A stretch of DNA of 64,000 bases, from assembly GCF_000800015.1 (NCBI RefSeq), contig NZ_JUGR01000001.1, positions 2,790,001 to 2,854,000 on the forward strand. Reading direction: 5' to 3'. Position numbers and translations under genes: made by a program. The stretch is from Terriglobus sp. TAA 43. GTDB taxonomy: Bacteria; Acidobacteriota; Terriglobia; Terriglobales; Acidobacteriaceae. The notes below the pieces were generated by a model, which saw nothing but the letters and a program-made list of their open reading frames with translations, ran no database searches and was not told the origin of the DNA. Shown piece by piece: positions 14,086 through 41,023 of this stretch (within the stretch, counting starts at the first letter, position 1; every line of letters begins with the position of its first letter).

Positions 14086-14093
14086 CGTCAGGC

Positions 14094-16373: not shown

Positions 16374-16402
16374 GTACTTTCCCCTCCGTATGGTTCTGAT
16401 AG

Positions 16403-17545: not shown

Positions 17546-17633
17546 GAGAAAGCTCTCCGAACCCCGGGATGTGTTGCCGGGGTGTTGCGCCAGGGTGACA
17601 GGGATGTAAATCCTTCTTGACCCTTCACGGGGT

Positions 17634-17650
17634 GGTGGATATGATCCACC
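17634..17650. promoter_or_regulatory. Candidate ROK operator (inverted repeat)
   Basis: GGTGGAT-ATG-ATCCACC is a perfect 7-bp inverted repeat between the ROK gene and the divergent TonB receptor gene, 89 bp from the ROK start. A TTGACC hexamer at 17664-17669 could be a -35 element for the receptor side, but no convincing -10 pairs with it. The site is assigned to the ROK protein by position only. The rest of 17546-17901 shows nothing recognisable. Confidence 0.45.
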
Positions 17651-17901
17651 TACCGAAACATTGTTGACCTGATTACCTTCGCAATACTACATCAGCCGCA
17701 CCGGGATTGACTCCAATTTATTCACTCAGTGAATTTATAGGCGAGCCAACGGGACAGGATGAAGTGCAGCTGGCAGGGAGTACGCGCATTTTTCGCCGGG
17801 GAAGAACTCATTTCCCTTTTGGCACAAGAAGATGCCTGTGCGCACGTGGACGACGACACAGGCCGATACCAGGCGGAACTATACCTCGGGAGACCAGGAC
17901 C

Positions 17902-21279: not shown

Positions 21280-21290
21280 CTAAAACAATG

Positions 21291-21325
21291 TCGGGCGGCT
21301 CACAGTTGAGCCGCCCGATTCTTTT
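21291..21325 (+). terminator. Terminator after the TonB receptor
   Basis: A perfect 12-bp stem (21291-21302 with 21307-21318) and a 4-nt loop are followed by TTCTTTT. It separates the receptor from the next genes or attenuates readthrough into them. Confidence 0.88.
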
Positions 21326-21357
21326 CACTGCTGTACTTTGCTCAGGGGATTGCGTTG

Positions 21358-22896: not shown

Positions 22897-22938
22897 ACAC
22901 TCGTCGAAACGCAGCATGCAGCAGGAGGAGAGAAGGCA

Positions 22939-24087: not shown

Positions 24088-24113
24088 CAGGCGCTGGTTT
24101 CGCGGAGGCAGTA

Positions 24114-24827: not shown

Positions 24828-24868
24828 CTTCCATGCGGATGTGTTGAATCCTGTTGCGGGAGACTGAC

Positions 24869-26470: not shown

Positions 26471-28622
26471 ACGCGATGTATACGCCGGGGATCGGGCCCT
26501 GCGCTGCAGGGTGTCCGGGCACCGCGTGCGTGTATGTGGTGGCGCGAGCCGCGGCGCAGAACACTACGTATTCCTTGCCGTTGATCTCGTAGATGGCGGG
26601 CATGCCTTCGAGTGCGGCACCCACTTCGTGTTCCCACAGAACTTTGCCGGTGGACGCATCGAGTGCGCGAATCTTGCGATCGCGTGTGCCGGTGAAGATG
26701 AGTCCGCCCGCTGTGACTACGGGGTTCACCTTCGGAAAGTGTGCGCCAGTGTTGGTGATGCCTTTGGCTGCTAGCTCCGGCACCTCACCCAGTGGAATCT
26801 TCCAACGAACGTTGCCGGTATTGAGGTCGTATGCGGTGAGTGTGGCCCATGGCGGAGCGATCACGGGCAGGCCGCTTTCTGAAAACATGAAGCCGAAGCC
26901 ACTGCGATAGCGCAGCGTAGCCGGATCGCCGGATGCTACAGCGTTTGTGCTTTCAATGATGGGCAGGCCGGGATTCTTCAGGAACTTCATCAGGTCATCG
27001 ACCTGCGCAGTCGGCAGGCTACCGAAGGATGGCATCTGATTCTTGCCGTAGCGCACGGTCTGACGAATCTGATCTTCGGTGAGTCGTTTGTTGATGTCGA
27101 CGAGAGTGGGAATGACGGGAGCTTTGCCTTCACGATTGGTGCCGTGGCACAGGCTGCATGTGTTGGCGTAGACGCCTGCGCCGCGTGCTTCCGGCGTATC
27201 GCCCACTGGCACCGCGGGAGGCAGTTGCAGCTTCAACATAGCAGGCAGGTCTTTGGATACGACGTAAAGATAGCCGTGCGTGGGATCGACGGCTGCGCCA
27301 CCATAGTTCACACCACCGTTATTGCCGGGCATCTCCACTGTGTCCTTGGTCGTGGGCGGTGTGTAGATGCCTTCGTTGCGCGCGGCATCAATCTGCTTCT
27401 TGAGTTGCGCGTGTTCTTCGGGCGAGAGGTATGGGCTCAGATCTTTCGATGTGAATGTCTGGCGGCTGAAGGGCTCAAGCTTGGTGGGCACAGGTTGCGT
27501 GGGCCACACGTGTTCGCCGGGCATGGCGTCCTGCGGTACGGGCTTCTCTTCAATGGGCCATAGCGACTTGCCCGTCACGCGATCGAAGACCCACAGGTAG
27601 CCGGTCTTGCTGGTCTGTGCGACAACGTCCACATCCTTGCCGTTGTGTTTTACGGTGAGCAGCATGGGGGTGTTTGGGTTGTCGTAATCCCAGATGTCGT
27701 GGTGCACCATCTGGAAGTGCCATATGCGTTTGCCGGTGTTTGCGTTGATTGCAATCAGCGAGTCGCCATAAAGGTTTGAGCCGGTGCGATTGGCGCCGTA
27801 GAAGTTGTACTTGGGGCTGGCGGTGGGTACGAACAGGATGCCGCGTTTTACATCGAGCGCCATGCCTCCCCATGCATTTGCTCCGCCTACGGTCTTCCAT
27901 GCATCCTTCGGCCATGTGTCGTAGCCGTATTCGCCGGGATGCGGAATGGTGTGGAAGATCCACGTCATCTTGCCGGTGAGGACGTTGTACGCGCGGATGT
28001 CGCCGGGTGCGGAGTCATATTCTTCGTTGGTGGCTGAGCCGAGAATCACCAGGTCGCCGAAGACTCGGCCAGGATTGTAGGACTGCACCAGCGTCAGTTT
28101 GTTCACGTCGCGGCCCAGGCCTTCACGCAGATCGACGTTGCCTTCTTTGCCGAAGGTGGTGATGGATTTGCCGGTGGCTGCGTTAATTTCGCGCAGTTGA
28201 TTGTCTACTGCAAAGATGAGGCGCTGATCCTTGCCATCGGCGCTCTGCCAGTAAGCGAGGCCGCGCGTGGGAACCAGAGGCGTCTTCGCGTCCAGCGGAT
28301 GCGACCACAGTTGTTTACCAGTGCCTGCGTCCAAAGCCACGATGCTGTTGTTCTGTGCCAGCACATACATCGTTGTGCCGATGATGAGCGGATTGAAAAC
28401 GTAGCCACGGCCATCGCCGGTGGCGACGCGCCATGCTTCCTGTAGATGACTAACGTTGGTTCGGTTGATCTGCTTCAGCGATGAGTATTGCGTGCCGTCT
28501 TCTGAACCGCCGTAAGCGCGCCATGTTGCATGCGCGTCTGTGGATGTTTGTGCGAAGGCTGATGTCGCGATGAGAACACTGGTGAAGGCAAGAGAGCTAA
28601 GCAGGTTGTGCCGTGGTGGCAT
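26454..28622 (-). CDS. PQQ-dependent dehydrogenase with internal cytochrome c domain
   Basis: A 722-residue quinoprotein: signal peptide to about SAFAQ (25), propeller blades, then a single cytochrome c domain inserted before the last blades (CSLCH at 489-493, with the axial Met probably in NQMPSFGS), and final blades ending VYIAFTLPN. The haem can take electrons directly from PQQ. I use the ATG at 28622, preceded by GGAG; ATG 28655 is the alternative. Either start overlaps the 3' end of the kinase gene, which implies coupling. Periplasmic. The substrate is probably a sugar or alcohol. Confidence 0.88.
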   Translation of the reverse strand: MPPRHNLLSSLAFTSVLIATSAFAQTSTDAHATWRAYGGSEDGTQYSSLKQINRTNVSHLQEAWRVATGDGRGYVFNPLIIGTTMYVLAQNNSIVALDAGTGKQLWSHPLDAKTPLVPTRGLAYWQSADGKDQRLIFAVDNQLREINAATGKSITTFGKEGNVDLREGLGRDVNKLTLVQSYNPGRVFGDLVILGSATNEEYDSAPGDIRAYNVLTGKMTWIFHTIPHPGEYGYDTWPKDAWKTVGGANAWGGMALDVKRGILFVPTASPKYNFYGANRTGSNLYGDSLIAINANTGKRIWHFQMVHHDIWDYDNPNTPMLLTVKHNGKDVDVVAQTSKTGYLWVFDRVTGKSLWPIEEKPVPQDAMPGEHVWPTQPVPTKLEPFSRQTFTSKDLSPYLSPEEHAQLKKQIDAARNEGIYTPPTTKDTVEMPGNNGGVNYGGAAVDPTHGYLYVVSKDLPAMLKLQLPPAVPVGDTPEARGAGVYANTCSLCHGTNREGKAPVIPTLVDINKRLTEDQIRQTVRYGKNQMPSFGSLPTAQVDDLMKFLKNPGLPIIESTNAVASGDPATLRYRSGFGFMFSESGLPVIAPPWATLTAYDLNTGNVRWKIPLGEVPELAAKGITNTGAHFPKVNPVVTAGGLIFTGTRDRKIRALDASTGKVLWEHEVGAALEGMPAIYEINGKEYVVFCAAARATTYTHAVPGHPAAQGPIPGVYIAFTLPN

Positions 28623-29586
28623 CGACTGACTCCGTGGTCCGTTGTTCGATTGCATGTGCGCGTGCTTCAAATGCCTGCTGGTCGCGTGCGCGCCACAACG
28701 CTCCCTCAATCGGATCAACCACGCCATCGCGTGTTTGCAGCGATGGGAAGTCTTTGCGCAACGACGCAATCAATGCTTCGCGCACGGGGACCACGCGTTC
28801 CATGATGCTGCCTGCGAAGGCAAGCTGCGGAACGAAGGTGGCGTCGCCCTGCAGCGTTTGTAACTTGCGAATCAGCAGGCGCACCAAGTGGGCGAGTGCT
28901 TCGCCTTCAGCCTTCAATACTTCCTGTGCAACAGGATCGCCGTGCTGCGCCACGCTGTACACAAGCTGCGCGAGTCGAGATACATCCGGTGCAGGTGTGC
29001 GGTTGGCGTATTCAATCAGCAGGTCCAGCGAGGGCAGATTCCAGAAATCGATCACGGCCTGTTGCAACGCCGTAGTGCGGCCCTCGTCGATGGCCATGAA
29101 GACGGAACGGATGGCGCGTAGGCCAATGGCGTGTCCGGAACCCTGATCCGAGAGCACGGGCCCCCATCCACCGGTGTTGGCCATCTTGCCGGAAGGTGTG
29201 CGGCCCGCAACATTGGAGCCCGTTCCTGCCAGTACAAGAATGCCGGGGCCGCCACGGAAGGCAGCGTCGAGCGCGATCTCTACATCGCCCAGAAGCAAGA
29301 GCTGTCCGCTGATACGTTCTGCGATGGTTTCGCGCAGCCAATCGGCCACCATGGGAACGGTTTCGCCTGCGGTTCCTACGCAGGTGCGCAGTACGGATGA
29401 CATGGCAATGCCGCTCTGCGCGGTCAGGCCGCGAAGTCCCTCTTCCAGATTCTGCAGTGCGGTATCCGCATCGGTGCGAAGACGCTTGATGGTGCCGGTG
29501 CGCTGCCTCGCCAGCGTGCGTGTTTCATCGGCCAGTACAAAGTCCGTTTTTGTGCCGCCCGCATCAATCGCCAGAAAATACGCCAT
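28597..29586 (-). CDS. BadF/BadG/BcrA-type ATPase, N-acetylglucosamine-kinase-like
   Basis: A 329-residue actin-fold sugar kinase. The phosphate-1 motif DAGGTKTDFVLAD opens the protein, followed by FRGGPGILVLAGTGSNVAG and GGWGPVLSDQGSGHAIG, matching the GlcNAc kinase (NAGK/MurK-like) branch of the BadF/BadG family. It should phosphorylate an amino sugar in the cytosol. Its 3' end overlaps the PQQ dehydrogenase gene by 26 bp. Together with the SIS isomerase and ROK regulator it supports amino-sugar catabolism, but no GlcNAc-6-P deacetylase is in this window. Confidence 0.87.
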   Translation of the reverse strand: MAYFLAIDAGGTKTDFVLADETRTLARQRTGTIKRLRTDADTALQNLEEGLRGLTAQSGIAMSSVLRTCVGTAGETVPMVADWLRETIAERISGQLLLLGDVEIALDAAFRGGPGILVLAGTGSNVAGRTPSGKMANTGGWGPVLSDQGSGHAIGLRAIRSVFMAIDEGRTTALQQAVIDFWNLPSLDLLIEYANRTPAPDVSRLAQLVYSVAQHGDPVAQEVLKAEGEALAHLVRLLIRKLQTLQGDATFVPQLAFAGSIMERVVPVREALIASLRKDFPSLQTRDGVVDPIEGALWRARDQQAFEARAHAIEQRTTESVDATTAQPA

Positions 29587-29667: not shown

Positions 29668-29702
29668 AAAAAGGCCGCGACGGAATAATTCTCCGTCGCG
29701 GC
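29668..29702 (-). terminator. Terminator of the second TonB receptor gene
   Basis: An 11-bp stem (29673-29683 with 29692-29702) whose T-run on the minus strand corresponds to the plus-strand A-run just left of it. It lies directly after the receptor's stop codon. Confidence 0.85.
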
Positions 29703-29715: not shown

Positions 29716-32700
29716 TTAGAAGTAGATTTTTGCGGCCAGTTCAATGGAGCGAGCGGCATTGAGTGTTGACGTAATCTGGCCTGCCGAGGCCGAGTCGATA
29801 TTCGTCACGGGCGTGGCAAAGGTAGTGTGGTTGAAGACGTTGAAGAACGATCCGCGGAACTCAAGAGAACGGGTGTCGCCAAAGGGGACTTTCTTCAGCA
29901 CTGAGACGTCGAACTGCACCAGACCGTCGTTGCGCATGGTGTTGGTGCCGCCGTTGCCGTAGGTGTATTGCGCGGGGATGCTGAAGGCATCCGTGCCACC
30001 GGTGGGGCAGGAGGCGTTGTGCGAGTCGTAATACCAGCAGCCGGGCCTGCGTACCATCTGCGGACGTCCGGTGATGTTCGGACGTTGGCCGCCAAGGCCG
30101 GTGTTTGCCTGGTCGTTGCTAATGCTCAGGGTGAAGGGCAGGCCAGACTGCATGGTGCCTACGCCGGAAAGACTCCAGTTACCAATGAGGCCCTGCACCA
30201 CGCCGCTTGCGCCCGAGGCAAACATTTTGCCTTTGCCGAAGGGCAATTCATACAGGCCGCTGGTTACGAAGTTGTGCTTGATGTCGTAGTTGCAGGGGCC
30301 GTAGTAACGGATGTTGCTGCTTTGCTCGCGCGTCTGGCCGTTGAAGGTGCCATCGGTCAGGCAGGCTCCGTAGGTGTAAGAAGCGAGGAAGGTGGCTCCA
30401 TTGAATGCGCGCGCCTCAAACTTGGTTTGCAGTGAGTTGTAGTTGGCGTTGCCAGCGTACTTTGAGAGTCCGATGGTGCCCCACTGTGGGAAGGGACGAC
30501 GCGTTTGGATGGTACCTGCGCCGGGGAACGGATCGTTGATCTGGAAGGGCTGCACGATGTGTTGCGTGCGGTTGCCAACGTACGCCACGTCCAGTGAGAT
30601 TTTGCGGCCAAACTGATGCTGCACGGCCAGGTTGTATTCCTGCGCGTAGGTGTTCTTCACGCGGAGGTCCATGGTGGTGAGGCTGGGTTGCGAGCAGGAG
30701 AGCGCTACATATCCAAATGAGCAGACTGAGTTGCTGGTGTTGGCGGCGACGATGGGCTGACCGGAGTAGAAGTCGCCAAAGGTGAGGTTGGGGACGCGTA
30801 CATTTGCTGAGTTTGGCGTGTTGTTGTTGTTCAGAGTTTGTGATGCGATGAAGGGGACAACGTTCTGCGTGTTGTTGATGGCGTTGTTATCCGGGAAGAG
30901 ATAGAAGATGCCGTAGCCTGCGCGGATAACGGTGTTCTCTTCTGCCTTGTAAGCAAGGCCGATGCGTGGCCCCATATTGACGCGGGCTGCGGGGCGAATG
31001 GATGTGGGCAGGCCAAGGTCGTTGCTGCCTTGAATGCGGTCTGAGAACAGCGAGTAGAGATACGGTGTGCCGGGCTGCGCGTTCATCGAGAAGTCTGACG
31101 GGATGACCAGCTTGCCATTGGCAGGGTTCCAGCCTGAGGTTTGGCCCTTGATGCCGTTGTAGAAGGGGTTGATCTCGTAACGTAAGCCTGCGTTGATGGT
31201 GAGTTTCGAACTCGCCTTGTAATCGTCTTGGACGTACATTGTCTGGAAGTTGACGTAGTTGCCCCACGGCTGGCGGAAGTAGCTGCGCAGCCCGGATGCG
31301 GGATAGCCCAGCAGGAAGTCCGCGAAGTTATCGCCGGAGTAGGAGTTGCTGAAGGTGAACGTACCTACCGAATTTGAGCCGAAGAGATAAGTGTTGGTGT
31401 CGTGGAAGTTTTCGTAGCCGAAGCGGACCTCATGCTTACCGCTGGTGTACGTGGAGCGGATGACGTACTGCCACGAGCGAATCTTGTTCTGCTTGGGATA
31501 GTTGCCGCTTTGGCCCGTGAAACCAGCGTAGTTGGAGATGCTGAGCTGCGGCATGCCCTGATATTGATCGGGCGATAGACCTTCGAGGCCTTTGACGCCG
31601 GCTTGCTGATTGATGTTCTGCCCTTGCAGCGAGCTGGTGAAGAAGAAGACGCTGCGGTAGTACGAGAACTGCGCTTCGGTCAGCCACTTTGGCGAGAATA
31701 TGTGTGTTTCTCGCAGCACCAGATTCTGGCCACGACTGCGAAGGGGAAAACCACCAAGCGCAGGGAATGGATTGGGATCTGTCTCATGGTTATCTGTGAT
31801 GGAATAGCGACCCATCAAGCGGTCCTTGGAGAAGAGCGTCTGATCAACGCGAATGTCGCCCTGGTTCAGTTGCTGCTTCAAACGGTTTGTCAGCACAGCA
31901 TGAGAAACAGTGCCACGAAGCTGGTTTGCATCCGGCATGTATTTCAGGAAGAACTGTGCCTGCGGCACGATGCGGTTTGAGGGGATCGTATTGTTCGCAA
32001 ATGCCAGTCCGGTGAGCGGGTCTTTGAGCGTGATGCCGGTGCCTTGGTAGTTGCCGCCACGCATCGCGGCGCTGGGTACGATGTTGTCGAAATTCTGGCC
32101 CAGCGTATACAGCGTTGATTGCAGATCAAGGAAGAAGAAGGTGTGGTCCTTCACGATCGGTCCGCCAACGGCAATGCCGAACTGATTGCGATGCAATGGC
32201 TGATTGCGACGCGTGGAACCGGCAGGCGGAACATAGAAGTAGTTCTTCGCGTCGAAGGCGTTGTTGCGCAGGAACTCATACGCCGTGCCGTGGTACGCGT
32301 TGGTGCCGCTCTTCAACGTGGCGTTCACAATCGTGGGGCTGTGGCCGTAGTCAGCGGGCATGTTGCTGGATTCCACTTTGAATTCCTGCAACGCGTCCAC
32401 GTTGGGCGAGATGAGCGTGCCGCCAAGCTGCGATTCCGTGATGTTTGATCCATCCAGATACCATCCGGTCCACGACGGCGAGAGGCCGTTCACATTCACG
32501 TTGACCGCACTGGCGCGGATGGATGTGCCGCCGGAAGCGATGTTCTGTCCACCCTGAATGAAGCTGACACCGGGCGTAAGCTGCGTGAGTTGCCAGAAGT
32601 TGCGGCCGTTCAACGGCACGTTCTGCACCGTCTGTGTATCAATGACTTGGCCCACGGCAGACGATGCTTCATTCAGCAGCGGTGTTTGCGTGGCGATCAC

Positions 32701-33066
32701 GTCCACCTTGTCAGAGATCGCGCCCACGTGCAGTACGGGGTTGATGGTGGCTCGCTGAGCCACCTGCAGCTCTGTGTCGGCAATCTGTGCGGAGGTGAAA
32801 CCATCGTGCGCAATGGTGATGGAGTAATGGCCGATTTGTAGATTGGGGACGTTGTATACGCCGCTGCCATCGGAAGTTGCGGTGCGCGTTTCACCTGTGC
32901 CCAGGTTGCGGATGGTTACGGTTGCGCCGGGAATAGCGGCGCCCGTATCGTCCTGCACGGTGCCGAGGATGGTGCCGGTATTGGACTGCGCGTGGGCCAC
33001 GGCGACGCAGGCAAGTGCAAGCGATACAGAGAGGATGGCCTTTCGGGAAAAGTGCAGCGGCGTCAT
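29716..33066 (-). CDS. TonB-dependent receptor, Oar-like (LacI regulon)
   Basis: An 1116-residue outer-membrane receptor: signal peptide to VAHAQ (27), carboxypeptidase-regulatory domain (ILGTVQDDTGAAIPGATVTI), plug (VPLNGRNFWQLTQLTPG; EFKVESSNMPADYGHSPT), and a barrel ending in AAKIYF. It is a homologue, not a copy, of the receptor at 17902. GGAG precedes the ATG. A LacI-type operator lies 88 bp upstream and two more lie in the same divergent gap, so the LacI protein at 39851 probably controls it. Ligand unknown, probably a sugar polymer or glycoside. Confidence 0.92.
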   Translation of the reverse strand: MTPLHFSRKAILSVSLALACVAVAHAQSNTGTILGTVQDDTGAAIPGATVTIRNLGTGETRTATSDGSGVYNVPNLQIGHYSITIAHDGFTSAQIADTELQVAQRATINPVLHVGAISDKVDVIATQTPLLNEASSAVGQVIDTQTVQNVPLNGRNFWQLTQLTPGVSFIQGGQNIASGGTSIRASAVNVNVNGLSPSWTGWYLDGSNITESQLGGTLISPNVDALQEFKVESSNMPADYGHSPTIVNATLKSGTNAYHGTAYEFLRNNAFDAKNYFYVPPAGSTRRNQPLHRNQFGIAVGGPIVKDHTFFFLDLQSTLYTLGQNFDNIVPSAAMRGGNYQGTGITLKDPLTGLAFANNTIPSNRIVPQAQFFLKYMPDANQLRGTVSHAVLTNRLKQQLNQGDIRVDQTLFSKDRLMGRYSITDNHETDPNPFPALGGFPLRSRGQNLVLRETHIFSPKWLTEAQFSYYRSVFFFTSSLQGQNINQQAGVKGLEGLSPDQYQGMPQLSISNYAGFTGQSGNYPKQNKIRSWQYVIRSTYTSGKHEVRFGYENFHDTNTYLFGSNSVGTFTFSNSYSGDNFADFLLGYPASGLRSYFRQPWGNYVNFQTMYVQDDYKASSKLTINAGLRYEINPFYNGIKGQTSGWNPANGKLVIPSDFSMNAQPGTPYLYSLFSDRIQGSNDLGLPTSIRPAARVNMGPRIGLAYKAEENTVIRAGYGIFYLFPDNNAINNTQNVVPFIASQTLNNNNTPNSANVRVPNLTFGDFYSGQPIVAANTSNSVCSFGYVALSCSQPSLTTMDLRVKNTYAQEYNLAVQHQFGRKISLDVAYVGNRTQHIVQPFQINDPFPGAGTIQTRRPFPQWGTIGLSKYAGNANYNSLQTKFEARAFNGATFLASYTYGACLTDGTFNGQTREQSSNIRYYGPCNYDIKHNFVTSGLYELPFGKGKMFASGASGVVQGLIGNWSLSGVGTMQSGLPFTLSISNDQANTGLGGQRPNITGRPQMVRRPGCWYYDSHNASCPTGGTDAFSIPAQYTYGNGGTNTMRNDGLVQFDVSVLKKVPFGDTRSLEFRGSFFNVFNHTTFATPVTNIDSASAGQITSTLNAARSIELAAKIYF

Positions 33067-33153
33067 AGGAGTCTGCTCCGTCGGAGTGTTTTGATTTTGC
33101 CGATTTCCGGAAGCATGTATGGCGACTGCAGAGCGACGCGGGTCTGGCAGAAT

Positions 33154-33305
33154 CGGAAGCGTTTCCGAAAATACGCACCGTCACCCTGTATTGTCAATAA
33201 ACTCGTCACTCCTTGGGCACCTGTGGCACAATTTTGTCGGAAACGCTTCCGCTATGGATTGACAAGGGAATCCTGCAGCGCTGATGCTTGTCGGAAACGC
33301 TTCCA
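33154..33305. promoter_or_regulatory. Three LacI-type operators between the TonB receptor and an SDR gene
   Basis: CGGAAGCGTTTCCG at 33154-33167, CGGAAACGCTTCCG at 33238-33251 and CGGAAACGCTTCCA at 33292-33305. The first is the second read on the other strand. Each has a central CpG and near-palindromic arms, as expected for LacI/GalR proteins. They lie 88 bp from the receptor start and 38 bp from the SDR start. Confidence 0.85.
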
Positions 33306-33342
33306 ATTTCGGCGTCCACGAAAGACTGGTTTTCAGAAAACT

Positions 33343-34110
33343 ATGAGCAGCTTGCAGACAAAACAACTGAATGGAAAAACCGCGTTGGTGACGGGTGCCA
33401 GCAGCGGCATTGGTGCCGCCTCGGCCTTGGCATTGGCCGCTGCCGGAGCGCACGTGCTGATCCACTACAACTCGCAGGCCGATGAGGCGCAGAAGGTGCT
33501 GGATCAGGTCCGCGCTGCCGGAGCAGACGGCGAAATCGTGCAGGCCGACCTGGGCACATGGGACGGCACGCAGGTTCTCTGCCGCTATGCGGAAGACCGG
33601 CAAATCGACATCCTGGTGAACAATGCCGGATCTCTCGTGCAGCGCACGCGTGTGCTGGAGTTCACGCATGAGCTGTGGGAGAAGGTGATGATGCTGAATC
33701 TCACCAGCGCCTTCTTCCTGTCGCAGGCGGTGTTGCGCGGCATGAGCGAACGCAAGAGCGGCGTCATCATCAACATGTCGTCCGTGGCTGCACGCTTTGG
33801 TGGTGGCTTGGGAGCGCTGGCTTACTCGTCCGCGAAGGCTGCAGTTTCGACGATGACGAAAGGGCTGACTAAGGAATTTGCGCCGCAGGGAGTGCGTGTG
33901 AACTGCATTTCGCCCGGCACGGTGGACACGGGCTATCACCGCTCGTTCTCTACGCAGGAAGGTCTGGACGGAGTGCGTGCTGCAACGCCGATTGGAAGGC
34001 TGGGAACGGCGGAGGAGATTGCCGATCTGGTGGTGTTCTTATCCAGCGATCAGGCGACGTTTATCCATGGCCAGGTGATTGAGATCAACGGCGGATTCTT
34101 CATGGCGTAG
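33343..34110 (+). CDS. SDR oxidoreductase (FabG/gluconate-dehydrogenase-like)
   Basis: A 255-residue classical SDR: TGASSGIGAASALA cofactor loop, NNAG, catalytic Ser in INMSSVAARFG, YSSAK, and the C-terminal FIHGQVIEINGG. It is a cytosolic NAD(P)-dependent sugar or keto-acid oxidoreductase; the FabG-like sequence does not fix the substrate. The start is ATG 33343; the upstream frame runs through the operators and is spurious. It diverges from the TonB receptor and sits 38 bp after a LacI operator, so it belongs to the same regulon. Confidence 0.9.
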   Translation: MSSLQTKQLNGKTALVTGASSGIGAASALALAAAGAHVLIHYNSQADEAQKVLDQVRAAGADGEIVQADLGTWDGTQVLCRYAEDRQIDILVNNAGSLVQRTRVLEFTHELWEKVMMLNLTSAFFLSQAVLRGMSERKSGVIINMSSVAARFGGGLGALAYSSAKAAVSTMTKGLTKEFAPQGVRVNCISPGTVDTGYHRSFSTQEGLDGVRAATPIGRLGTAEEIADLVVFLSSDQATFIHGQVIEINGGFFMA

Positions 34111-34129
34111 GTTGGGAATCAGGAAAAAG

Positions 34130-34155
34130 AAGGGCGCCCACAGGGCGCCCTTTTG
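34130..34155. terminator. Bidirectional terminator between SDR and MFS genes
   Basis: A perfect 10-bp GC-rich stem (34130-34139 with 34143-34152) lies between an A-run and a T-run. It serves both converging genes. Confidence 0.88.
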
Positions 34156-34178
34156 CATGAAAGTAATCATTCGGAGTT

Positions 34179-35441
34179 TCAGACGGCGGGAGCGATGTCG
34201 CGTCGGCGTGCCACGCGCGGCAGTGTCCATACCAGCGTTGCTGCGATGATGGGCAGTGTTCCGAAGAGCATGAACACTGGCCGGAACGAGTAATGATCGA
34301 CGAGCCAGCCAGTGCACAGGCTGAAGACCATGCCGCCGAAGCCGGAACCCATGCTGGCAAGTCCCCAGATGGAAGCGACAGCGTTCTTCGGATAAAGATC
34401 ACGCGGAATGGCGAGTACGTTCGCCAGCGCGCCGCTGTAGCCGAAGGTAGCCGTGGAGATCAGAGCGATGCTCAATGCCGCACTGCTGACCATGGCCGCC
34501 GGAAACGCGCAGACCATGCATGCGGAGAAGAACAGAACGCTGATGCGGCGGGCTGTCTGATCGTTGACGCCGCGCTTCATGATCAGCGCGGTCAAGAAGC
34601 CTCCCGCGAGATTGCCGAGGCCCGCGGTCGCAAAGGGAATCCAGCCGATCTTTCCAATCTGCGCCAGCGTGTAGCCGTGGCCCATTTTCAGGTATTGCGG
34701 GAACCAGAAGGTGTAGAAGTACCAGACCGGATCAGCGAAGACCTTGCTCAGAGTGAACTGCCACACAAAGCGGTCCTGAATGAGCGAAAGAACGGAAGGC
34801 GCGGGAACGACCGGTTCTGCAGGATTAACAGGTGGTGTGCGATAGATCAGCAGCCACACGACCATCCAGATGAATCCAAGAACGCCAACGATGGCGAATG
34901 ATGCTTTCCACCCGAAGCTGATGGCACACCACGCGAGCAGCGGTGGCGCGAGCATGGCTCCAATGGCCGCGCCGCTATTGAAGATTCCTGAAGCAAGAGA
35001 GCGCTCACGTGCAGGGAACCATTCGCCAATGACTTTTACGCCTGCGGGATAGTTGCCCGCCTCGCCCATGCCCAGCAGAAAGCGATAGATGCCGAGCGAG
35101 AATGCACCGGTGGTCAAGCTGGTGAGAATCTCTGCGGCAGACCAGAAAGCAATGGTCAATGAATAACCTTTGCGACTGCCGAGACGATCCAACAGCGGTC
35201 CGGAGATGCCGTTCATGATGGTGTACGCCAGCATGAACGCAAAGATGATCTGGCTGTACGTGCCTGCGGAGATGTGGAACTGATCGAGCAGGACCGGCGC
35301 CATGACAGAGAGTGTCTGTCGATCGAGATAGTTGATAACCGTAGCGAAAAACGTCATCGCCAGCATGGCCCAGCGCATGCGGCTGAGCGTGAATGTGGCG
35401 TTTGTTTCCGCAGACGGATTCGTTATAGCTGAGGTGCTCAT
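34179..35441 (-). CDS. MFS transporter, hexuronate (ExuT)-like
   Basis: A 420-residue, about 12-helix major facilitator of the anion:cation symporter type. RWAMLAMTFFATVINYLDRQTLSVMAP, RFLLGMGEAGNYPAGVKVIGEWFPARERS and FNSGAAIGAMLAPPLLAW are typical of hexuronate/glucarate transporters. It probably imports an acidic sugar made in the periplasm. Its start overlaps the end of the exported TIM-barrel gene by 4 bp (ATGA). It is the only inner-membrane sugar transporter in the window and the last gene of the LacI-controlled unit from 38826. Confidence 0.88.
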   Translation of the reverse strand: MSTSAITNPSAETNATFTLSRMRWAMLAMTFFATVINYLDRQTLSVMAPVLLDQFHISAGTYSQIIFAFMLAYTIMNGISGPLLDRLGSRKGYSLTIAFWSAAEILTSLTTGAFSLGIYRFLLGMGEAGNYPAGVKVIGEWFPARERSLASGIFNSGAAIGAMLAPPLLAWCAISFGWKASFAIVGVLGFIWMVVWLLIYRTPPVNPAEPVVPAPSVLSLIQDRFVWQFTLSKVFADPVWYFYTFWFPQYLKMGHGYTLAQIGKIGWIPFATAGLGNLAGGFLTALIMKRGVNDQTARRISVLFFSACMVCAFPAAMVSSAALSIALISTATFGYSGALANVLAIPRDLYPKNAVASIWGLASMGSGFGGMVFSLCTGWLVDHYSFRPVFMLFGTLPIIAATLVWTLPRVARRRDIAPAV

Positions 35442-36481
35442 GCGAGTCCCTGCTTTGCAAGGTGCGTGCGCACGGCTTGCAAATCCTTCTTCATCGTTGC
35501 AAGCACTTGTTCGCGAGGAAGCGTGAGTGTGGTCTTGCCGTTTTCTGCGCCGCCCAGCGGATATTCAAAGTGCAGTTGCAGCGGACCGTTGAAGTTCTGC
35601 GTCTTCACGATGCCGAGGAACTGATCGAAGTGCACCATGCCTTCGTTGATGGGGCACCAGTGCGGTACGAACACGCCGGTAGCGCCGAGACTCTTGTCAT
35701 AAGGATCGGCGTGCGTGTTGCTCTTTTCATTGCGCGCCCACAGGAAGTCCTTCAGCGCGATGCCGCGCATCCAGTCTGCGGAGAGCTTGCTGGTGCAGAT
35801 CCATCCGCCGTAACCGCCTTCCACGGTGGCGTGGCCAATGTCGTAGTTGAAGCCAAACCATTTCGGATCGATTCCGCGGAACATCTCCCATAGGTCCCAG
35901 ATGGTTGCGCCAATGGCTTCCGGGCCGGAGTGTGTGTGATACATCGCAGCAACGCCGTTCTTCTGGCTAAGGTCTGCAAGTGCTCGTACGCCGGGGCGCA
36001 TTGCATCCAGCTGCGCCACGATGGGCTTGTTCGTTTCATACTTCAGGCCGCCCCAGCGATAGTGATGAATACCTTCACCAGCAGCGGCTTCCAGAATCTT
36101 CTTCGCCATCGGCATGGTGGCGGGCGTGATCTCCGTGCTGACCATGGAGACTTCCAATCCGGCTTTGCGTACGGCGGCAACGGCTTTCGGCAGATCAGTG
36201 GTGACGTTCTCCGGTAGCACGTGGCCTTCCGCGCGCACCGTCATGTCGATAGCGTCAAAGCCCATATCCTTGGCGGCAATCGCAGCTTCTCCAATGGGCA
36301 TGAACTGCAGATGCTTGGAGAAGATGGATACCTTCAACGGGCCGGCCGGTGGCGCAGGTGTGATGTTGCGTGTGGATTCCGCACGCATCGTTGTTGATCC
36401 AAAAGCCTGTGCTGCGCCCGCCATGGCCGCGCCCAGCAGAAGCGATCGGCGTGACATTCCCCATTCTGTTTCGTTCTGCAT
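35438..36481 (-). CDS. Tat-exported TIM-barrel sugar isomerase (LacI regulon)
   Basis: A 347-residue xylose-isomerase-like barrel with a twin-arginine signal (MSRRSLLLGAAMAGAAQAFG after eight residues). Metal-site motifs include EVSMVSTEITP, YHTHSGPE, NYDIGHATVEGG and HFEYPLGG. The ATG at 36481 has GAGGTAA in front; ATG 36457 is possible. It lies between the quinoprotein gene (5-bp gap) and the transporter gene (4-bp overlap), so periplasmic oxidation, isomerisation and uptake are encoded in order. Reaction unknown. Confidence 0.87.
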   Translation of the reverse strand: MQNETEWGMSRRSLLLGAAMAGAAQAFGSTTMRAESTRNITPAPPAGPLKVSIFSKHLQFMPIGEAAIAAKDMGFDAIDMTVRAEGHVLPENVTTDLPKAVAAVRKAGLEVSMVSTEITPATMPMAKKILEAAAGEGIHHYRWGGLKYETNKPIVAQLDAMRPGVRALADLSQKNGVAAMYHTHSGPEAIGATIWDLWEMFRGIDPKWFGFNYDIGHATVEGGYGGWICTSKLSADWMRGIALKDFLWARNEKSNTHADPYDKSLGATGVFVPHWCPINEGMVHFDQFLGIVKTQNFNGPLQLHFEYPLGGAENGKTTLTLPREQVLATMKKDLQAVRTHLAKQGLA

Positions 36482-36486
36482 GTGCG

Positions 36487-38826
36487 TTACCTCTTTGCGG
36501 TCGATGTTGTGGTTGAGGGCAGTGCAAAGGTCAGCAGCGTTGACCCTGCCGTGACGGAGACGTATTGCTTGCCGTCAACGGCGTAGGTCATCGGCGGGCC
36601 TTTCATGCCCACGTTGGTGTCGTAATGCCAAAGAATCTTTCCGGTCTTCTCATCGGCGGCACAGAATGCGCCGTTGGGATCGGCGTAGAAGACAAGTCCT
36701 CCTGCGGTAGCGATCACGCCGGACCATGTCTTCAGAACAAGCGCGCCGGGCTGTGCAATCTCCCATTTGGTTTCGGCAGTTTCAATGTCGATCGCGCGTA
36801 CGAAGCGCTGCTGCAACCCCTGTGCTGCAGGCGTGCCGGGCGCAGCCTTGGGATCGCCACAAGCCTCAATCGTCATCATGTAATACCAATGCGTGGTGGG
36901 GCTGAATGCGGTGGATGTCCAGTTGGCGCCGTTGTCCGGGCAATTGCGCTGCTTGGTTGGCATGGTGGAGGGCAGCGACTTGTTGAGGATGGGGCGGCCA
37001 TTCGCGTCGATGCCGGTTGCCCAGTTGATGCGCTTCAGGAATGGCTTCGCTTCCAACAGTTTGCCGTTGGTGCGATCGAAGACGTAGAAGAATCCGTTGC
37101 GATCCGCGTGCAGCAACAGTTTGCGTGGCTGACCCTGGAATGTTGTGTTGACGAGGACGGGTGGTTCCACGGCATCACGATCCGCAAGATCATGAGGCGT
37201 GAACTGGAAGTACCACTTCACTTTGCCGTCGTGCGGATTCATCGCGAGGATGCTGTTGGTGTACAGGTTGTCGCCGGGGCGCGTGCGGTCGTCGGAGTCA
37301 GGCCACGGATTGCCGGTGGGCCAGAACAGCGTGTCGGTTTCGGGATCGTAGGAGCCGTGCAGCCAGGTGGATCCGCCGCCCAGCTTGGGCCACTCCGGTC
37401 CCCATGATTCCAGTCCGGGTTCGCCGGGGCCTGGCAGAGTCCAGTGTCGCCACAGTTTCTTGCCCGTCTCTGCGTCGTAGCAGATGATGAAGCCGCGAAT
37501 GCCCCAGTCACCGCCGGAGACGCCGCCGATGACGGTGTCGTTCAGAATCATGGGCGCTACGGTGGAACCGTACTTCATCTTCTCTTCCGGCATGGTCTGT
37601 TCCCACACAGGCTTGCCGGTGACGCGGTTCAGGGCGATAAGATGCGCGTTGTCTGTGGTGATGTACACCTTGTCGCGGAACACGGCAGCACCGCGATTCG
37701 TGCCCACGGATGCATCGCCCACAAGGCCCGATGTGGGCGGGCGGAACCATGTCCAGATGGTGCGACCCGTTTTTGCATCCAGCGCACTCACGCGGTTTTG
37801 GCCGGAGAAGTACATGATGTCGCCCACGACGATGGGCGTGGCTTCAAGGCCTAGCTGCGGCATGGGTGCAATCCACTTCAGCATGAGCTGGCTGACGTTG
37901 CTGCGATCGATGCTCGTGAGATCGCTGTAGCGATTGGCGTTGAGCTTGCCGTTGTACGAAGGCCATTCGCCCTTGCGCGGATGCAGGATTTCGTTGAACT
38001 CAATGATGCTGGCACCGGGTGTGATGACCGCGTTCTTCTCCGGCATGGGGCCATCCACGCCGGTCAGGCTGCCGAGGTATGCTGTGAGATCGTCCATCTG
38101 CTTTTCGGGCAGTGTGAGCGGCTTCATCGCGGCATGGTCGTCGACAGTTAGTTTTGTTACCTGCGAGAGCGGCAGCAGATGGATCGTGCCGCCATCTTTG
38201 TCCTGCAGATGAATGTCGTAGTTGGTGCGATTGCGCAAATAACCGTGCAGCGTCTTGCCGCCGATAATTGCGGTGGCCAGTTCGTAACCGGGCGTGATGT
38301 GCAAATCCGGCGCGGTGAGCGCAGCGCGGATCGACGGTACGCTCATATGCGATCCAACGTCGGAAAGGTCGGGTCCTGTTGCGGAACCCACACCGCGCAC
38401 CATGTGGCACGTGCTGCACTTGCCGTCGTTCCAGAAAAACTGCTTGCCCGCATCTGCGTTGCCGACGGCGGCGCTTTCCGCTGCGGTTACGTTCAGCGAA
38501 CGGACGTACGCGGCAAGGTCATCAATGTCTGCGGATGGCATGCTGCCGAAAGGAGGCATGCCCTGGGCGGGAAATCCCGCCGCAATGATGCTGTGAATGC
38601 GGGCAATGTCTTTGCCGCGAAGGTCGGGATTGTCGGCCAGCTTTGGCGCGTGCTCTGTTCCGCTGCCGTCTGTCCCATGGCAGCCAACACAGAAATTGTT
38701 GTACTTGGCTTTGCCGGATGTGGCGGAGGGCGTTTGTGCGGGCAGCGCTACGGCCGCGGCGCACAGCAGAACAGCAGCCAGAGTGCGGGTTGCGGAATGG
38801 ACGAAGCTGGTTTGTGTTCGATTCAT
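36487..38826 (-). CDS. PQQ dehydrogenase with two N-terminal cytochrome c domains
   Basis: A 779-residue fusion: signal peptide to about ALPAQ (31), first cytochrome domain with CVGCH at 46-50 (MPPFGSMPS likely holds the axial Met), second with CSTCH at 137-141, then a complete PQQ propeller (WPSYNGKLNANRYSDL onward). It should oxidise a sugar or alcohol in the periplasm and pass electrons through its own haems. A LacI operator lies 91 bp upstream. It heads the unit containing the TIM-barrel and MFS genes. Confidence 0.92.
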   Translation of the reverse strand: MNRTQTSFVHSATRTLAAVLLCAAAVALPAQTPSATSGKAKYNNFCVGCHGTDGSGTEHAPKLADNPDLRGKDIARIHSIIAAGFPAQGMPPFGSMPSADIDDLAAYVRSLNVTAAESAAVGNADAGKQFFWNDGKCSTCHMVRGVGSATGPDLSDVGSHMSVPSIRAALTAPDLHITPGYELATAIIGGKTLHGYLRNRTNYDIHLQDKDGGTIHLLPLSQVTKLTVDDHAAMKPLTLPEKQMDDLTAYLGSLTGVDGPMPEKNAVITPGASIIEFNEILHPRKGEWPSYNGKLNANRYSDLTSIDRSNVSQLMLKWIAPMPQLGLEATPIVVGDIMYFSGQNRVSALDAKTGRTIWTWFRPPTSGLVGDASVGTNRGAAVFRDKVYITTDNAHLIALNRVTGKPVWEQTMPEEKMKYGSTVAPMILNDTVIGGVSGGDWGIRGFIICYDAETGKKLWRHWTLPGPGEPGLESWGPEWPKLGGGSTWLHGSYDPETDTLFWPTGNPWPDSDDRTRPGDNLYTNSILAMNPHDGKVKWYFQFTPHDLADRDAVEPPVLVNTTFQGQPRKLLLHADRNGFFYVFDRTNGKLLEAKPFLKRINWATGIDANGRPILNKSLPSTMPTKQRNCPDNGANWTSTAFSPTTHWYYMMTIEACGDPKAAPGTPAAQGLQQRFVRAIDIETAETKWEIAQPGALVLKTWSGVIATAGGLVFYADPNGAFCAADEKTGKILWHYDTNVGMKGPPMTYAVDGKQYVSVTAGSTLLTFALPSTTTSTAKR

Positions 38827-38916
38827 GTTCTGCGGTCATCCAGCCTCGAACCGCCCCTGAAAGGGCCGGCCCGCGTCCGTATTCTCCTGTAGAGGTTTCG
38901 CGCTGGTTCGTTGCGT

Positions 38917-39035
38917 CGGAAACGCTTCCGAGGAATCTTCAGCCAAGCATCTCGCGGCTGTCAACCTCCGTATTGCGACATCGGATACCCTCGCGCTTCG
39001 CGGCGCAGCGGTGATAGCTTTGTAAGCGCTTCCGA
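38917..39035. promoter_or_regulatory. Two LacI-type operators between the PQQ gene and an SDR gene
   Basis: CGGAAACGCTTCCG at 38917-38930 is identical to the site at 33238. TGTAAGCGCTTCCGA at 39021-39035 is a weaker match with the same centre. They lie 91 bp from the PQQ gene start and about 35 bp from the SDR start, the same geometry as at 33154-33305. Confidence 0.8.
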
Positions 39036-39069
39036 AAATACAGAATGCAGACGGGAATAAGGAGCTGGA

Positions 39070-39798
39070 ATGGCGGAGTCGCTTCAGGGAAAAGTGGTGC
39101 TGGTGGTGGGAGCTTCCAGCGGTATTGGGCGGGCCACCGCGGAACTTGCCGCACGCGAGGGCGCAGTGGTGGTGGCCGTGGCACGGCGTGAAGACAGGCT
39201 GATTGCCATGAAGCAGCAGCTTGCTTCAGATGGGGTCACACTGCACACGCGCAAAGCCGATGTCACGCAGTTGGAAGAGATGCAGGCGATGGTTGAGGAC
39301 GTTGAGAAGACCGTCGGGAGCATTGCGATTGCGGTGTATGCAAGCGGCACCAATACGCCGGAGCGTGCCATGAAAGTGATGCCGCCTGCGGTGTGGAATG
39401 AAGTTTTAGACGTCAACCTGACCGGCGCATTCCACTTGGCGCACGTCGTGCTGCCGGGCATGCGTAACGCGGGTGCTGGCCATATCGTGTTCGTCTCGTC
39501 GACCGCCGGAGCCATTGCCGATCTTTCTGGAGCGGCGTATCAGGCGTCGAAGCGCGGTGTTCTGGGGCTGGCTCATGCTATCCGGCTTGAGGAGCGCATG
39601 AACGGCATTCGCACGTGCTGCATCATGCCGGGGCTGACGAATACAGAGCTGGTGGAGAAGCGGCCAGAAAAGCTGTCTGCGGACACACTGGAAAAAGCAT
39701 TGCAGCCGAGGGATGTGGCGGAGACGATTGTCCACGTGATGAAGACGCCTGCTCATGTCACCATCACGGAATTGTTGATGGTTCCATCGCAGGCGTAG
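39070..39798 (+). CDS. SDR oxidoreductase (LacI regulon)
   Basis: A 242-residue SDR: GASSGIGRATAELA loop, catalytic Ser in VSSTAGAI, YQASK, and RTCCIMPGLTNTELV, a C-terminal layout like the YdfG/3-hydroxy-acid dehydrogenase branch. Cytosolic NAD(P)-dependent oxidoreductase. AGGAG precedes the ATG. It diverges from the PQQ fusion gene with an operator about 35 bp upstream, so LacI control is likely. It is a different subfamily from the SDR at 33343; the two may catalyse successive steps. Confidence 0.89.
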   Translation: MAESLQGKVVLVVGASSGIGRATAELAAREGAVVVAVARREDRLIAMKQQLASDGVTLHTRKADVTQLEEMQAMVEDVEKTVGSIAIAVYASGTNTPERAMKVMPPAVWNEVLDVNLTGAFHLAHVVLPGMRNAGAGHIVFVSSTAGAIADLSGAAYQASKRGVLGLAHAIRLEERMNGIRTCCIMPGLTNTELVEKRPEKLSADTLEKALQPRDVAETIVHVMKTPAHVTITELLMVPSQA

Positions 39799-39818
39799 TC
39801 GATCTGAGTAAGTAGATG

Positions 39819-39845
39819 AAAAGCCCTGGATTATCCGGGGCTTTT
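39819..39845. terminator. Bidirectional terminator between SDR and lacI-family genes
   Basis: A 12-bp stem with one G-T wobble (39819-39830 with 39834-39845) is flanked by an A-run and a T-run. It sits between converging genes. Confidence 0.85.
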
Positions 39846-39850
39846 AGCTT

Positions 39851-40882
39851 TTACTTGGTGAGTTTTGCAACCGATGAACGTTCCACCAGCTCTACATCCA
39901 CTACGCGATGGATGGGGGCCTTCGAGCCACTGCTGAGTAGCTGCTGCACAATCTCAACCGCTGCGCGGCCGACTTCATACTTCGGCTGGCGAACTGTGGT
40001 GAGCGGCGGGAAGGTCATGGCGGACAGCTCCACATCGTCAAAGCCGATGAGTGAGATATCGCGTGGGATACGTACGCCTGCTTCGATCGCGGCACGCATT
40101 ACGCCAAATGCCATGGCATCGTTGCCGGTGGCAATGGCGGTTTCGCCGTTGAGATTGCGGAAGATTTCAATCGCCGCTTCGTAGCCACCCTGCATGGTGT
40201 TGAGGGTGTGGATGGTGTTCACACGCGCGCCACGCTGCGCTTCCATAGCCTTCACAAATGCGGTGGAGCGGCGTGACAGGTTGGCATGTTTCTTAGGGCC
40301 GGTGAGGTTGATTACCTTGCGATGGCCGTTGCGCAGAAGGCATTCTGCAGCTAGTCGTCCGCCCTTGTCGTTATCCGCGTTCACGGTCGAGAACGTGGTG
40401 TCGCGCCCAGGACGATTCAGCAACACAATCGGCACGCCCGCTGCGGCAATCTTCTGCTGATCTTCGCGCGAAAGCGTTGCGACGGAGTTCATGATGATGG
40501 CCTCCGCACGCTTATCCAGCAGCGAGTTCACAGACTTCATCTGGCGCTCTGCGTTCAGGTCGCTGTTGCACAGCATTACATCGCGGCCGGATTCCAGCGC
40601 GGCATCTTCCACACCACGCGCCACTTCCGCGAAGTAGGAATTACGGATATCGCTGACGATGAGGCCCACCATGTCTGACCGACCCGTTACCAGTCCGCGC
40701 GCAAAGCGGTTGGGCTTGTAGTGCAGTTGTTCCGCAATGCGCTGCACGCGCGCCTTGGTTTCCGGGTGCACGCCGTAGGCATCGTTCAGGGAGCGCGATG
40801 CGGTTGCAATGGTGACGCCTGCGGCCTCTGCCACCGCCTGCAGTGTCACGCCGCCTGTTCCCGGATTTCCGTTCTTCACCAT
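39851..40882 (-). CDS. LacI-family transcriptional repressor
   Basis: A 343-residue regulator. The helix-turn-helix VTLQAVAEAAGVTIATASRSLN (about 12-33) and hinge YKPNRFARGL are followed by a periplasmic-binding-like sensor domain (GLIVSDIRNSYFAEVARGVED; GFDDVELSAMTFPPLTTVRQP). LacI hinge helices favour a central CpG, as found in the six local sites. I use ATG 40882. Its own upstream region holds a long perfect palindrome (40996-41023), implying autoregulation. The effector is probably the sugar used by the surrounding genes. Confidence 0.93.
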   Translation of the reverse strand: MVKNGNPGTGGVTLQAVAEAAGVTIATASRSLNDAYGVHPETKARVQRIAEQLHYKPNRFARGLVTGRSDMVGLIVSDIRNSYFAEVARGVEDAALESGRDVMLCNSDLNAERQMKSVNSLLDKRAEAIIMNSVATLSREDQQKIAAAGVPIVLLNRPGRDTTFSTVNADNDKGGRLAAECLLRNGHRKVINLTGPKKHANLSRRSTAFVKAMEAQRGARVNTIHTLNTMQGGYEAAIEIFRNLNGETAIATGNDAMAFGVMRAAIEAGVRIPRDISLIGFDDVELSAMTFPPLTTVRQPKYEVGRAAVEIVQQLLSSGSKAPIHRVVDVELVERSSVAKLTK

Positions 40883-40995
40883 CAATCACGTGTGCCGGAT
40901 GAAATTACCTTCGCAAACCGGCGGCTTCCTGTCTTTAGTTTTTGAGTCGGCGCAAATTTTCCGTAGGCGCCACGGACAAACAATACCCGAAGAAC

Positions 40996-41023
40996 GCTTT
41001 TTCGGAAAGGTTTCCGAAAAAGC
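40996..41023. promoter_or_regulatory. Operator palindrome upstream of the lacI-family gene
   Basis: A perfect inverted repeat of 13 bp arms around a GG centre. Its core CGGAAAGGTTTCCG (41003-41016) matches the regulon motif except at the centre (GG instead of CG). It lies 114 bp upstream of the regulator's ATG. Confidence 0.75.

Follow-up and report, generated by a model that had tools for sequence, protein, structure and literature searches.

The closest described regulatory systems are the local regulons of LacI-type transcription factors. In the RegPrecise study of this family (Ravcheev et al. 2014, PMC4052901), which covered seven phyla, Acidobacteria are not named (0 occurrences) in the accessible part of the text. 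According to the same part, the operators of local regulons are even palindromes with a central CG, located mostly 30-140 bp before the starts of a few linked operons, and autoregulation was identified for 72% of the LacI-type factors. On the enzyme side, the closest systems are glycoside pathways of oxidation, elimination, hydration and reduction, like the levoglucosan pathway encoded by lgdA-B1-B2-C (PMC7676230) or the GlycDH-AtOGE-AtHYD pathway of Agrobacterium tumefaciens (PMC10628242). Here, a stretch of 64,000 nucleotides from Terriglobus sp. TAA 43 (contig NZ_JUGR01000001.1, positions 2,790,001 to 2,854,000), referred to as the window, was analysed. It contains a cluster of seven genes coding for an outer-membrane receptor, two short-chain dehydrogenases/reductases (SDR1 and SDR2), a major facilitator superfamily (MFS) transporter, a triosephosphate isomerase (TIM) barrel protein, a haem-containing quinoprotein (PQQ2) and a LacI-type repressor. 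This cluster is probably a local LacI-type regulon that serves to take up one sugar or glycoside and to oxidise it in the periplasm. Searches of an open-access library brought up no earlier description of a cluster or regulon of this type.

The reading as a regulon is based on six predicted operator sites, designated s1 to s6 (Table 1). The 14-bp motif CGGAAACGCTTCCG is present in exact form at s1 (on the minus strand), s2 and s4 and with one mismatch at s3; CGGAAAGGTTTCCG at s6 and TGTAAGCGCTTCCG at s5 differ from it by two and three mismatches, respectively. All six coordinates named in the original prediction were right, and the motif class was confirmed in the window: a search of both strands with up to three mismatches gave 23 matches, compared to 9.05 expected in shuffled sequences, and none of 100 shuffles reached 23. 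The palindrome core GGAARNNYTTCC was identified five times in the window, compared to 0.13 expected, with all five copies inside the cluster. A weight matrix was derived from 11 sites, among them those of the window and three of an Edaphobacter metagenome-assembled genome (MAG), so that the scores of these sites are partly circular. With this matrix, the six sites took ranks 1 to 6 in the window (23.0-17.3), followed by 11.7 at the seventh place; this agreed with the earlier statement that the window holds no other clear copy. In the random control, scores of at least 15 occurred at 2.5 per Mb. All of the sites are upstream of the five transcription units that had been named from the sequence: the receptor gene, the SDR1 gene, the operon of quinoprotein, TIM barrel and MFS, the SDR2 gene and lacI. 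For each unit, the centre of a site is 42.5-124.5 bp upstream of the start, within the 30-140 bp of local LacI regulons. All sites are even palindromes, with CG in the centre of s1 to s5 and GG/CC in the centre of s6.

A genome-wide scan with the motif had been proposed to define the full regulon, and it was run with sequence patterns on the window's genome of 4.95 Mb (99.88% completeness). The near-exact pattern CGGAARCGYTTCCG was found at five places, three of them within the window cluster, compared to one place for the reversed-pattern control. The looser pattern did not stand out: the wider form CGGAARNNYTTCCG occurs at ten places, four of them in the window, versus eight in the control, and with two mismatches no enrichment was detected genome-wide (56 forward and 40 reverse matches versus 89 and 73). 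Outside the cluster, only near-exact sites therefore merit attention.

For the conservation of the sites, the window's genome (G000) was compared to two close genomes of the same genus, G003 and G008, in which the cluster DNA is 90% and 86-87% identical to the window. In these three genomes, 82 of the 84 site bases are invariant, compared to 459 of 630 bases outside the sites in the three intergenic regions that carry them (P = 1.4e-9 for the excess, with columns taken as independent). Sites s1, s4, s5 and s6 are conserved in 14/14 positions and s2 and s3 in 13/14, which also supports the weak site s5. The three genomes are close and are not independent samples, and the locus of the Edaphobacter MAG (L156) is the stronger test of conservation.

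In L156, all seven genes are kept in the same order and orientation with 65-85% identity (LacI 78%, SDR2 73%, quinoprotein 71%, TIM barrel 65%, MFS 85%, SDR1 83%, receptor 78%). The three highest-ranking matrix places of this locus, all of which are included in the matrix, lie before the quinoprotein operon, the receptor and SDR1, and the next place scores 9.9; by a plain consensus count, five places reach at least 12/14, these three promoter sites and two others. The operator at L156:6722 follows TTGACA...TGAAGAT before the quinoprotein operon in the same layout as s4, and the one at L156:13335, the counterpart of s1, follows TTGACA...TAATTT before the receptor. The counterpart of s3 before SDR1 (L156:13197) is 138 bp from the receptor site, a spacing equal to that of the window, despite an alignment of the receptor-SDR1 intergenic DNA at only 149 of 322 columns. 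The stretch VTIATASRSLND of LacI, which we read as the recognition helix, is unchanged in the L156 ortholog. Site and regulator are conserved together in three Terriglobus-group genomes and one Edaphobacter MAG. With one lacI gene, five units and six sites kept in three genomes, and with synteny and three sites in L156, it is well supported that the predicted operators are real and form a local LacI regulon. In L156, a frame with a ThuA domain (L156:6682-7587) is located between the operator and the quinoprotein gene and heads the quinoprotein operon; the frame as taken covers the operator at 6722, and its true start is probably later.

Any match to the TIM barrel was obtained in 10 of 61 genomes searched, the own genome included (98% and 93% identity in G003 and G008), and LacI was found at E <=1e-60 in 5 of 120 genomes, which are the own one, G003, G008 and two distant ones (G041 and G059; 49 and 53%). 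The pattern CGGAARCGYTTCCG is present in 17 of 61 relatives; within the genus, apart from the three close genomes, G004, G006, G009 and G015 contain one copy each, and each of these four copies is inside an open reading frame (ORF) of the longest-frame type. Genes for the TIM barrel and a PQQ2-like protein occur together in L155, which is another acidobacterial MAG, and in L156, L168 and L180. An initial scan of genome contigs gave 25 pattern matches and no relatives, and a scan of viral contigs gave no matches.

The gene families of the original prediction were recovered throughout, while the TonB dependence of the receptor would be by analogy, no Plug domain being among its Pfam hits. For LacI, both domains scored above their cut-offs (PF00356 with 54.4 bits, cut-off 27; PF13377 with 112.8 bits, cut-off 26.5), and the start of lacI may be an ATG 3 or a GTG 6 bases further in. 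The TIM-barrel gene shares 4 bases with the MFS gene and is separated by 5 bases from that of the quinoprotein. The receptor promoter, TTGACA-N18-TATTTT, is the sole sigma-70-like site listed by the consensus scan inside the cluster; the other promoters were read by eye, helped by the match to L156. By analogy to the usual action of LacI-family repressors, the position of the sites at the presumed transcription starts suggests that repression would act via a block of the polymerase. The spacings of 84 bp (s1-s2), 54 bp (s2-s3) and 104 bp (s4-s5) are near whole turns of a 10.5-bp helix and would suit several dimers on one face. Autoregulation is possible through s6 upstream of lacI. The strongest terminator-like stems are located behind the genes of the receptor, the MFS transporter and SDR2, and the one after the receptor separates it from a NagK-like/PQQ1 pair.

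Table 1. Features of the seven-gene cluster and its predicted control sites (positions in the window).
Feature	Position	Strand	Evidence or context
Terminator-like stem after receptor	29674..29702	minus, also listed plus	12 pairs, 9 GC, T-run
Outer-membrane beta-barrel receptor (TBDT), acidobacterial carboxypeptidase-regulatory-domain type	29716..33066	-	Pfam OMP_b-brl_4 1.3e-220, CarboxypepD_reg
Predicted operator s1	33154..33167		directly after receptor -10 (TTGACA, 18 nt, TATTTT at 33197-33168 minus)
Predicted operator s2	33238..33251		just upstream of SDR1 -35 TTGACA (by eye)
Predicted operator s3	33292..33305		just downstream of SDR1 -10-like TGATGC (by eye)
SDR1, short-chain dehydrogenase/reductase	33343..34110	+	adh_short_C2 5.1e-55
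Terminator-like stem, convergent SDR1/MFS	34130..34152	minus (MFS side)	10 pairs, 8 GC
MFS transporter	34179..35441	-	MFS_1 1.2e-59; nearest model D-galactonate transporter, TIGR00893 237 bits, cut-off 395
Xylose-isomerase-like TIM barrel, Tat-like signal SRRSLLLGA	35438..36481	-	AP_endonuc_2 2.7e-22
PQQ2: cytochrome c-type domain, second haem-binding domain, quinoprotein beta-propeller	36487..38826	-	Cytochrom_C, PQQ
Predicted operator s4	38917..38930		after TTGACA-N17-TGAAGA (by eye), promoter of PQQ2-TIM-MFS operon
Predicted operator s5 (TGTAAGCGCTTCCG)	39021..39034		centred 42.5 bp before SDR2 start
SDR2, short-chain dehydrogenase/reductase	39070..39798	+	adh_short 6.8e-48
Terminator-like stem, convergent SDR2/lacI	39819..39845	plus (SDR2 side)	12 pairs, 6 GC
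LacI-family repressor	39851..40885	-	LacI helix-turn-helix 1.1e-14, Peripla_BP_3 2.4e-32
Predicted operator s6 (CGGAAAGGTTTCCG)	41003..41016		centred 124.5 bp before lacI

The NagK-like/PQQ1 pair (26454-29586) was rejected as a part of the regulon: it is preceded by a terminator-like stem and lacks any of the six top sites upstream. PQQ1, encoded after the NagK-like kinase gene, is a second quinoprotein with an internal cytochrome domain. A separate cluster at 13030-26470, taken from the ORF list with names given by eye, comprises two Gfo/Idh-like genes, two TIM barrels of the Tat (twin-arginine translocation) type, a ROK-like regulator and a receptor, and further holds MlrC-like, CutC-like and sulfatase-like genes.

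Compared to the local LacI regulons as far as described in the accessible part of PMC4052901, the system is an ordinary one in kind, with even palindromes, a central CG, the usual distance to the starts, few linked operons and a candidate for autoregulation. Its contents are unusual. The targets include a haem-quinoprotein and a Tat-type TIM barrel, and CG is missing from the centre of the site upstream of lacI.

The regulon had been described as self-contained, which is doubtful. Outside the window, 13 places were examined, of which 10 were flagged inside an ORF by the longest-frame rule and three lie outside (L036, L041, L045); conservation in the relatives was examined for two of the places, C1:892585 and C1:2582459. 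The site CGGAAGCGCTTCCG at C1:892585 (L034:4586) is identical in G003, has one edge change in G008, and is flanked by a GntR-kdgK-eda operon and by the gene of another receptor. The longest-frame rule places it inside an extended GntR ORF; very likely it is intergenic, with GntR starting at a later ATG as judged by eye. The invariant palindrome ACCTATTGTATAGGT beside it could be a GntR site. GntR-kdgK-eda, the lower Entner-Doudoroff branch, may be co-controlled by the LacI of the window; any of the seven LacI proteins encoded in the genome might bind there as well. At L041:4678, CGCAAGCGTTTCCG scores 19.1 immediately upstream of a gene that was judged by eye to be esterase-like, and it could be a further target. 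An exact copy at C1:2582459 was rejected as a member of the regulon, being located about 20 codons inside the cytochrome c gene of a cytochrome/quinoprotein operon, common to G003 and changed in G008; it is probably due to chance. In the leader of a receptor gene at L035:6257-6306 and 6454 (G000:C1:998256-998466), three LacI-like palindromes follow each other in 18-bp steps, with a fourth about 160 bp further (scores 15.6-18.7).

PQQ2 consists of two haem-type domains followed by a beta-propeller, and it is probably exported. The TIGR02603 haem domain was identified with 72.3 bits, over the cut-off of 68.15. The best solved relatives (E 1.5e-82 to 1.6e-80) are the type II quinohaemoprotein alcohol dehydrogenases 1KV9 and 1KB0 and the PedH-type quinoprotein ethanol dehydrogenase 6ZCW; the score against TIGR03075 remains under the cut-off (434.5 versus 480.05 bits). 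The best NCBIfam match is TIGR04528 (acido-empty-quinoprotein group A) with 454 bits, below the cut-off of 650, and PQQ2 was therefore rejected as a plain member of this group. Residues were compared to 1KV9, 6ZCW and others, 18 fetched relatives and PQQ1 of the window. The subgroup of PQQ2 (window, L155, L156, L168, L180) keeps a Glu, Asn-Arg-Gly, Trp, Asn, Asp-x-Asp and Arg-Asn-Gly, with the Asp-x-Asp being like that of 6ZCW. Most residues that we take to be ligands of pyrroloquinoline quinone (PQQ) or the metal are kept in PQQ2 (Glu, Arg, Trp, Asn, Asp-x-Asp, Arg), and the metal-ligand Glu is replaced by Asp. The subgroup Glu is absent from all nine compared group A sequences that score over the cut-off, one of which has Asp. 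In contrast to the solved dehydrogenases, PQQ2 has two N-terminal haem domains. For TIGR04528, 34 candidates of the window's genome were scored, and 20 of them accounted for 22 matches at E <=0.001, with 9 of the listed ones over the cut-off, and the model also matches under the cut-off in 8 of 14 control genomes. At the same threshold, 22 matches were found in G003 and 16 in G008, and one over-cut-off member (724 bits) is located near the left end of the window at 1802-3364 (G000:C1:2791802-2793364).

The TIM barrel is probably exported by the Tat system, since R11-R12 within SRRSLLLGA are invariant in the family alignment (A2, without the L069 row). A phmmer search against the PDB gave no matches at E 0.01. 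With an AlphaFold2 model (predicted local distance difference test score, pLDDT, 86.2), the top 50 Foldseek matches, at 11-16% identity, include SCO6571, Art22, UlaE, AtHYD (a 2-hydroxy-3-keto-glucal hydratase), tagatose-type epimerases and YcjR (a 3-keto-glucoside 4-epimerase). As far as the model goes, the sugar-isomerase fold is right; it is general to the superfamily and does not single out a function. In the family, D214 is present in 30/30 rows, H182-x-H184 and E306 in at least 90%, and Ala at position 242 also in at least 90%. Besides the structural match, AtHYD gave a weak profile match (8ro4, E 0.0014), and the arrangement of HxH on strand 5, Asp on strand 6 and Glu on strand 8 is a likeness to the glycoside pathways. 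The HxH is not diagnostic, because the IolE-type structure 3cny has it too. In 3tva, 3cny and 3p6l, a His precedes Lys-Asp where the family has Ala 242. AtOGE is reported, in the accessible part of PMC10628242, to use His132, Asp163, His189 and Glu233 with the catalytic His134; the strand-7 ligand is thus not common to AtOGE and the TIM-barrel family.

In 30 related loci, a Gfo/Idh-type gene was found within 7 kb of the TIM barrel in 10, a quinoprotein gene in 7, both in 2 and neither in 15; frames between stops of at least 150 amino acids were counted, several of the loci are cut by contig ends, and a single representative, with an N-terminus of the RR type, served to name the Gfo/Idh family. 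The L155 neighbourhood contains two alpha-L-fucosidase genes and an enolase-superfamily gene. Together, the Gfo/Idh, quinoprotein, ThuA and fucosidase neighbours give hints of keto-sugar or glycoside chemistry.

For the function of the cluster, we infer the following course of events. A LacI dimer would bind to the CGGAARCGYTTCCG-like palindromes located at or around the core promoters of all five units, its own gene included, and would keep RNA polymerase off until an inducer derived from the sugar releases it. The receptor would carry the substrate through the outer membrane, and the haem/quinoprotein, possibly using scavenged PQQ, would oxidise it in the periplasm, with its own cytochrome domains as electron acceptors. 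The Tat-exported TIM barrel might then rearrange or cleave the oxidised sugar, the MFS transporter would import the product, and the two cytosolic SDRs would finish the conversion. As a pathway this is plausible, yet it is not complete as first read. A kinase or aldolase is not among the seven genes, and in the genome no match to PqqC and no PqqB or PqqE over the cut-off was detected. Import of the product as an acid and the order of the steps stay conjectural, and the MFS score is below the cut-off of the D-galactonate transporter model.

A number of observations weigh against the regulon and the proposed oxidation. With regard to control, the central GG/CC of s6 departs from the CG centre of the other sites. 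For s2, s5 and s6, no counterpart was found in L156, and no site was found there before lacI. L155 contains the MFS, quinoprotein and TIM-barrel genes without LacI and has no site scoring above 14.5, and neither the cluster nor the motif was found beside the LacI homologs of G041 and G059. The seven LacI proteins of the genome could share sites. The promoter scan (2 overall versus 6.4 expected in shuffles) gave no evidence by number, and the terminator scan was at chance (21 stems versus 18.6 in shuffles). The sugar as substrate class is suggested by family resemblance only. Concerning the oxidation, the vicinal Cys-Cys pair is absent from the PQQ2 subgroup (among the other rows, only L107 has it). 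In G000, G003 and G008, no match to PqqC was obtained (found in 3 of 21 genomes), and PqqE (found in 11 of 61) and PqqB over their cut-offs are absent; PqqA, PqqD and PqqU were not searched. In the accessible part of a paper, PqqU in Acidobacteria is reported only for Vicinamibacteria, with own synthesis or diffusion suggested for others (PMC12124388), which leaves the cofactor supply unexplained. Most likely, the quinoprotein of the strain would work only with PQQ from outside, or without PQQ altogether. The periplasmic oxidation claimed originally is to be taken as a prediction. PqqC was found in the genome of L156 and not in those of L155, L168 and L180, the completeness of which is not given. 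In the genomes G002, G007 and G009 of the same genus, PqqB, PqqC and PqqE are all over the cut-off.

The rival with the best standing, a possibility to be held tentatively, is a route from aldose to aldonate, in which the quinoprotein would oxidise C1, a DgoT-like MFS transporter would import the acid, and 2-keto-3-deoxy-acids would be handled by the kdgK-eda operon. It would account for the D-galactonate transporter subfamily as the best model of the MFS protein, for the conserved LacI-type site before GntR-kdgK-eda and for the enolase-superfamily and fucosidase genes near the cluster relative L155. However, a lactonase or sugar-acid dehydratase is not among the seven genes, the MFS protein is under the cut-off of the model, the kdgK-eda site may serve another of the seven LacI proteins, and the exported TIM barrel would be left without a clear role.

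Unlikely, and less favoured than the aldonate route, is a redox-inactive or 'empty' quinoprotein with a sugar-binding or scaffold function in a system of uptake and cytosolic SDR conversion. The best NCBIfam model, the missing vicinal cysteines and the search results for PqqB, PqqC and PqqE would all fit such a protein. They are opposed by the score under the group A cut-off, by the Glu that is absent from nine group A sequences and that the subgroup keeps along with Arg, Trp, Asn, Asp-x-Asp and Arg-Asn-Gly, by the fused haem domains, which make sense for electron transfer, and by PqqC in the genome of the Edaphobacter ortholog.

A more specific version of the oxidative reading, which we regard as doubtful, is a LacI-switched 3-keto-glycoside pathway. 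Here, the haem-quinoprotein with PQQ scavenged from soil would replace the NAD- or flavin-dependent C3 oxidase, and the Tat-exported TIM barrel would cleave the keto-glycoside in the periplasm. Like the levoglucosan and A. tumefaciens systems, so far as the accessible parts of PMC7676230 and PMC10628242 describe them, the cluster groups a dehydrogenase with a sugar-isomerase-like TIM barrel and a reductase. It has one TIM barrel where they have two, a quinoprotein where they have a flavo- or NAD enzyme, and SDRs where they have Gfo/Idh (no Gfo/Idh reductase is among the seven cluster genes); it further differs by a probably exported TIM barrel and by Ala in place of the strand-7 His ligand. 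In related loci, the neighbour of the TIM barrel is either a Gfo/Idh-type gene or one for a quinoprotein, as though one oxidase module could be swapped for another.

A non-sugar substrate, such as a polyol or an aromatic alcohol from plants, is improbable: the nearest solved relatives of PQQ2 are alcohol dehydrogenases and the SDR and MFS families are unspecific, but 176 of 182 LacI groups with an assigned pathway serve carbohydrates according to the accessible part of PMC4052901, and some TIM-barrel relatives adjoin Gfo/Idh, ThuA and alpha-L-fucosidase genes. Least probable is that a different LacI paralog binds the sites, or that they belong to a repeated element without regulatory role, for which the seven LacI genes and similar palindromes outside the window (e.g., L035, L041) could speak, since the sites are linked with the same lacI across two genera, one of them lies upstream of lacI, and they are conserved at the level of bases and similar in promoter position.

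The comparative LacI study does not name Acidobacteria in its accessible part (PMC4052901), and a defined acidobacterial LacI regulon is therefore useful. The local LacI regulon for uptake and periplasmic oxidation proposed here offers genes, operators and promoters that can be put to the test, in a group with poorly known gene functions. If the LacI of the window binds at C1:892585, the lower Entner-Doudoroff branch would join the regulon. The locus also sharpens the question of the PQQ source in quinoprotein-rich genomes in which PqqB, PqqC and PqqE are not detected. One quinoprotein-like gene is tied to a defined switch, and its induction would offer a direct assay.

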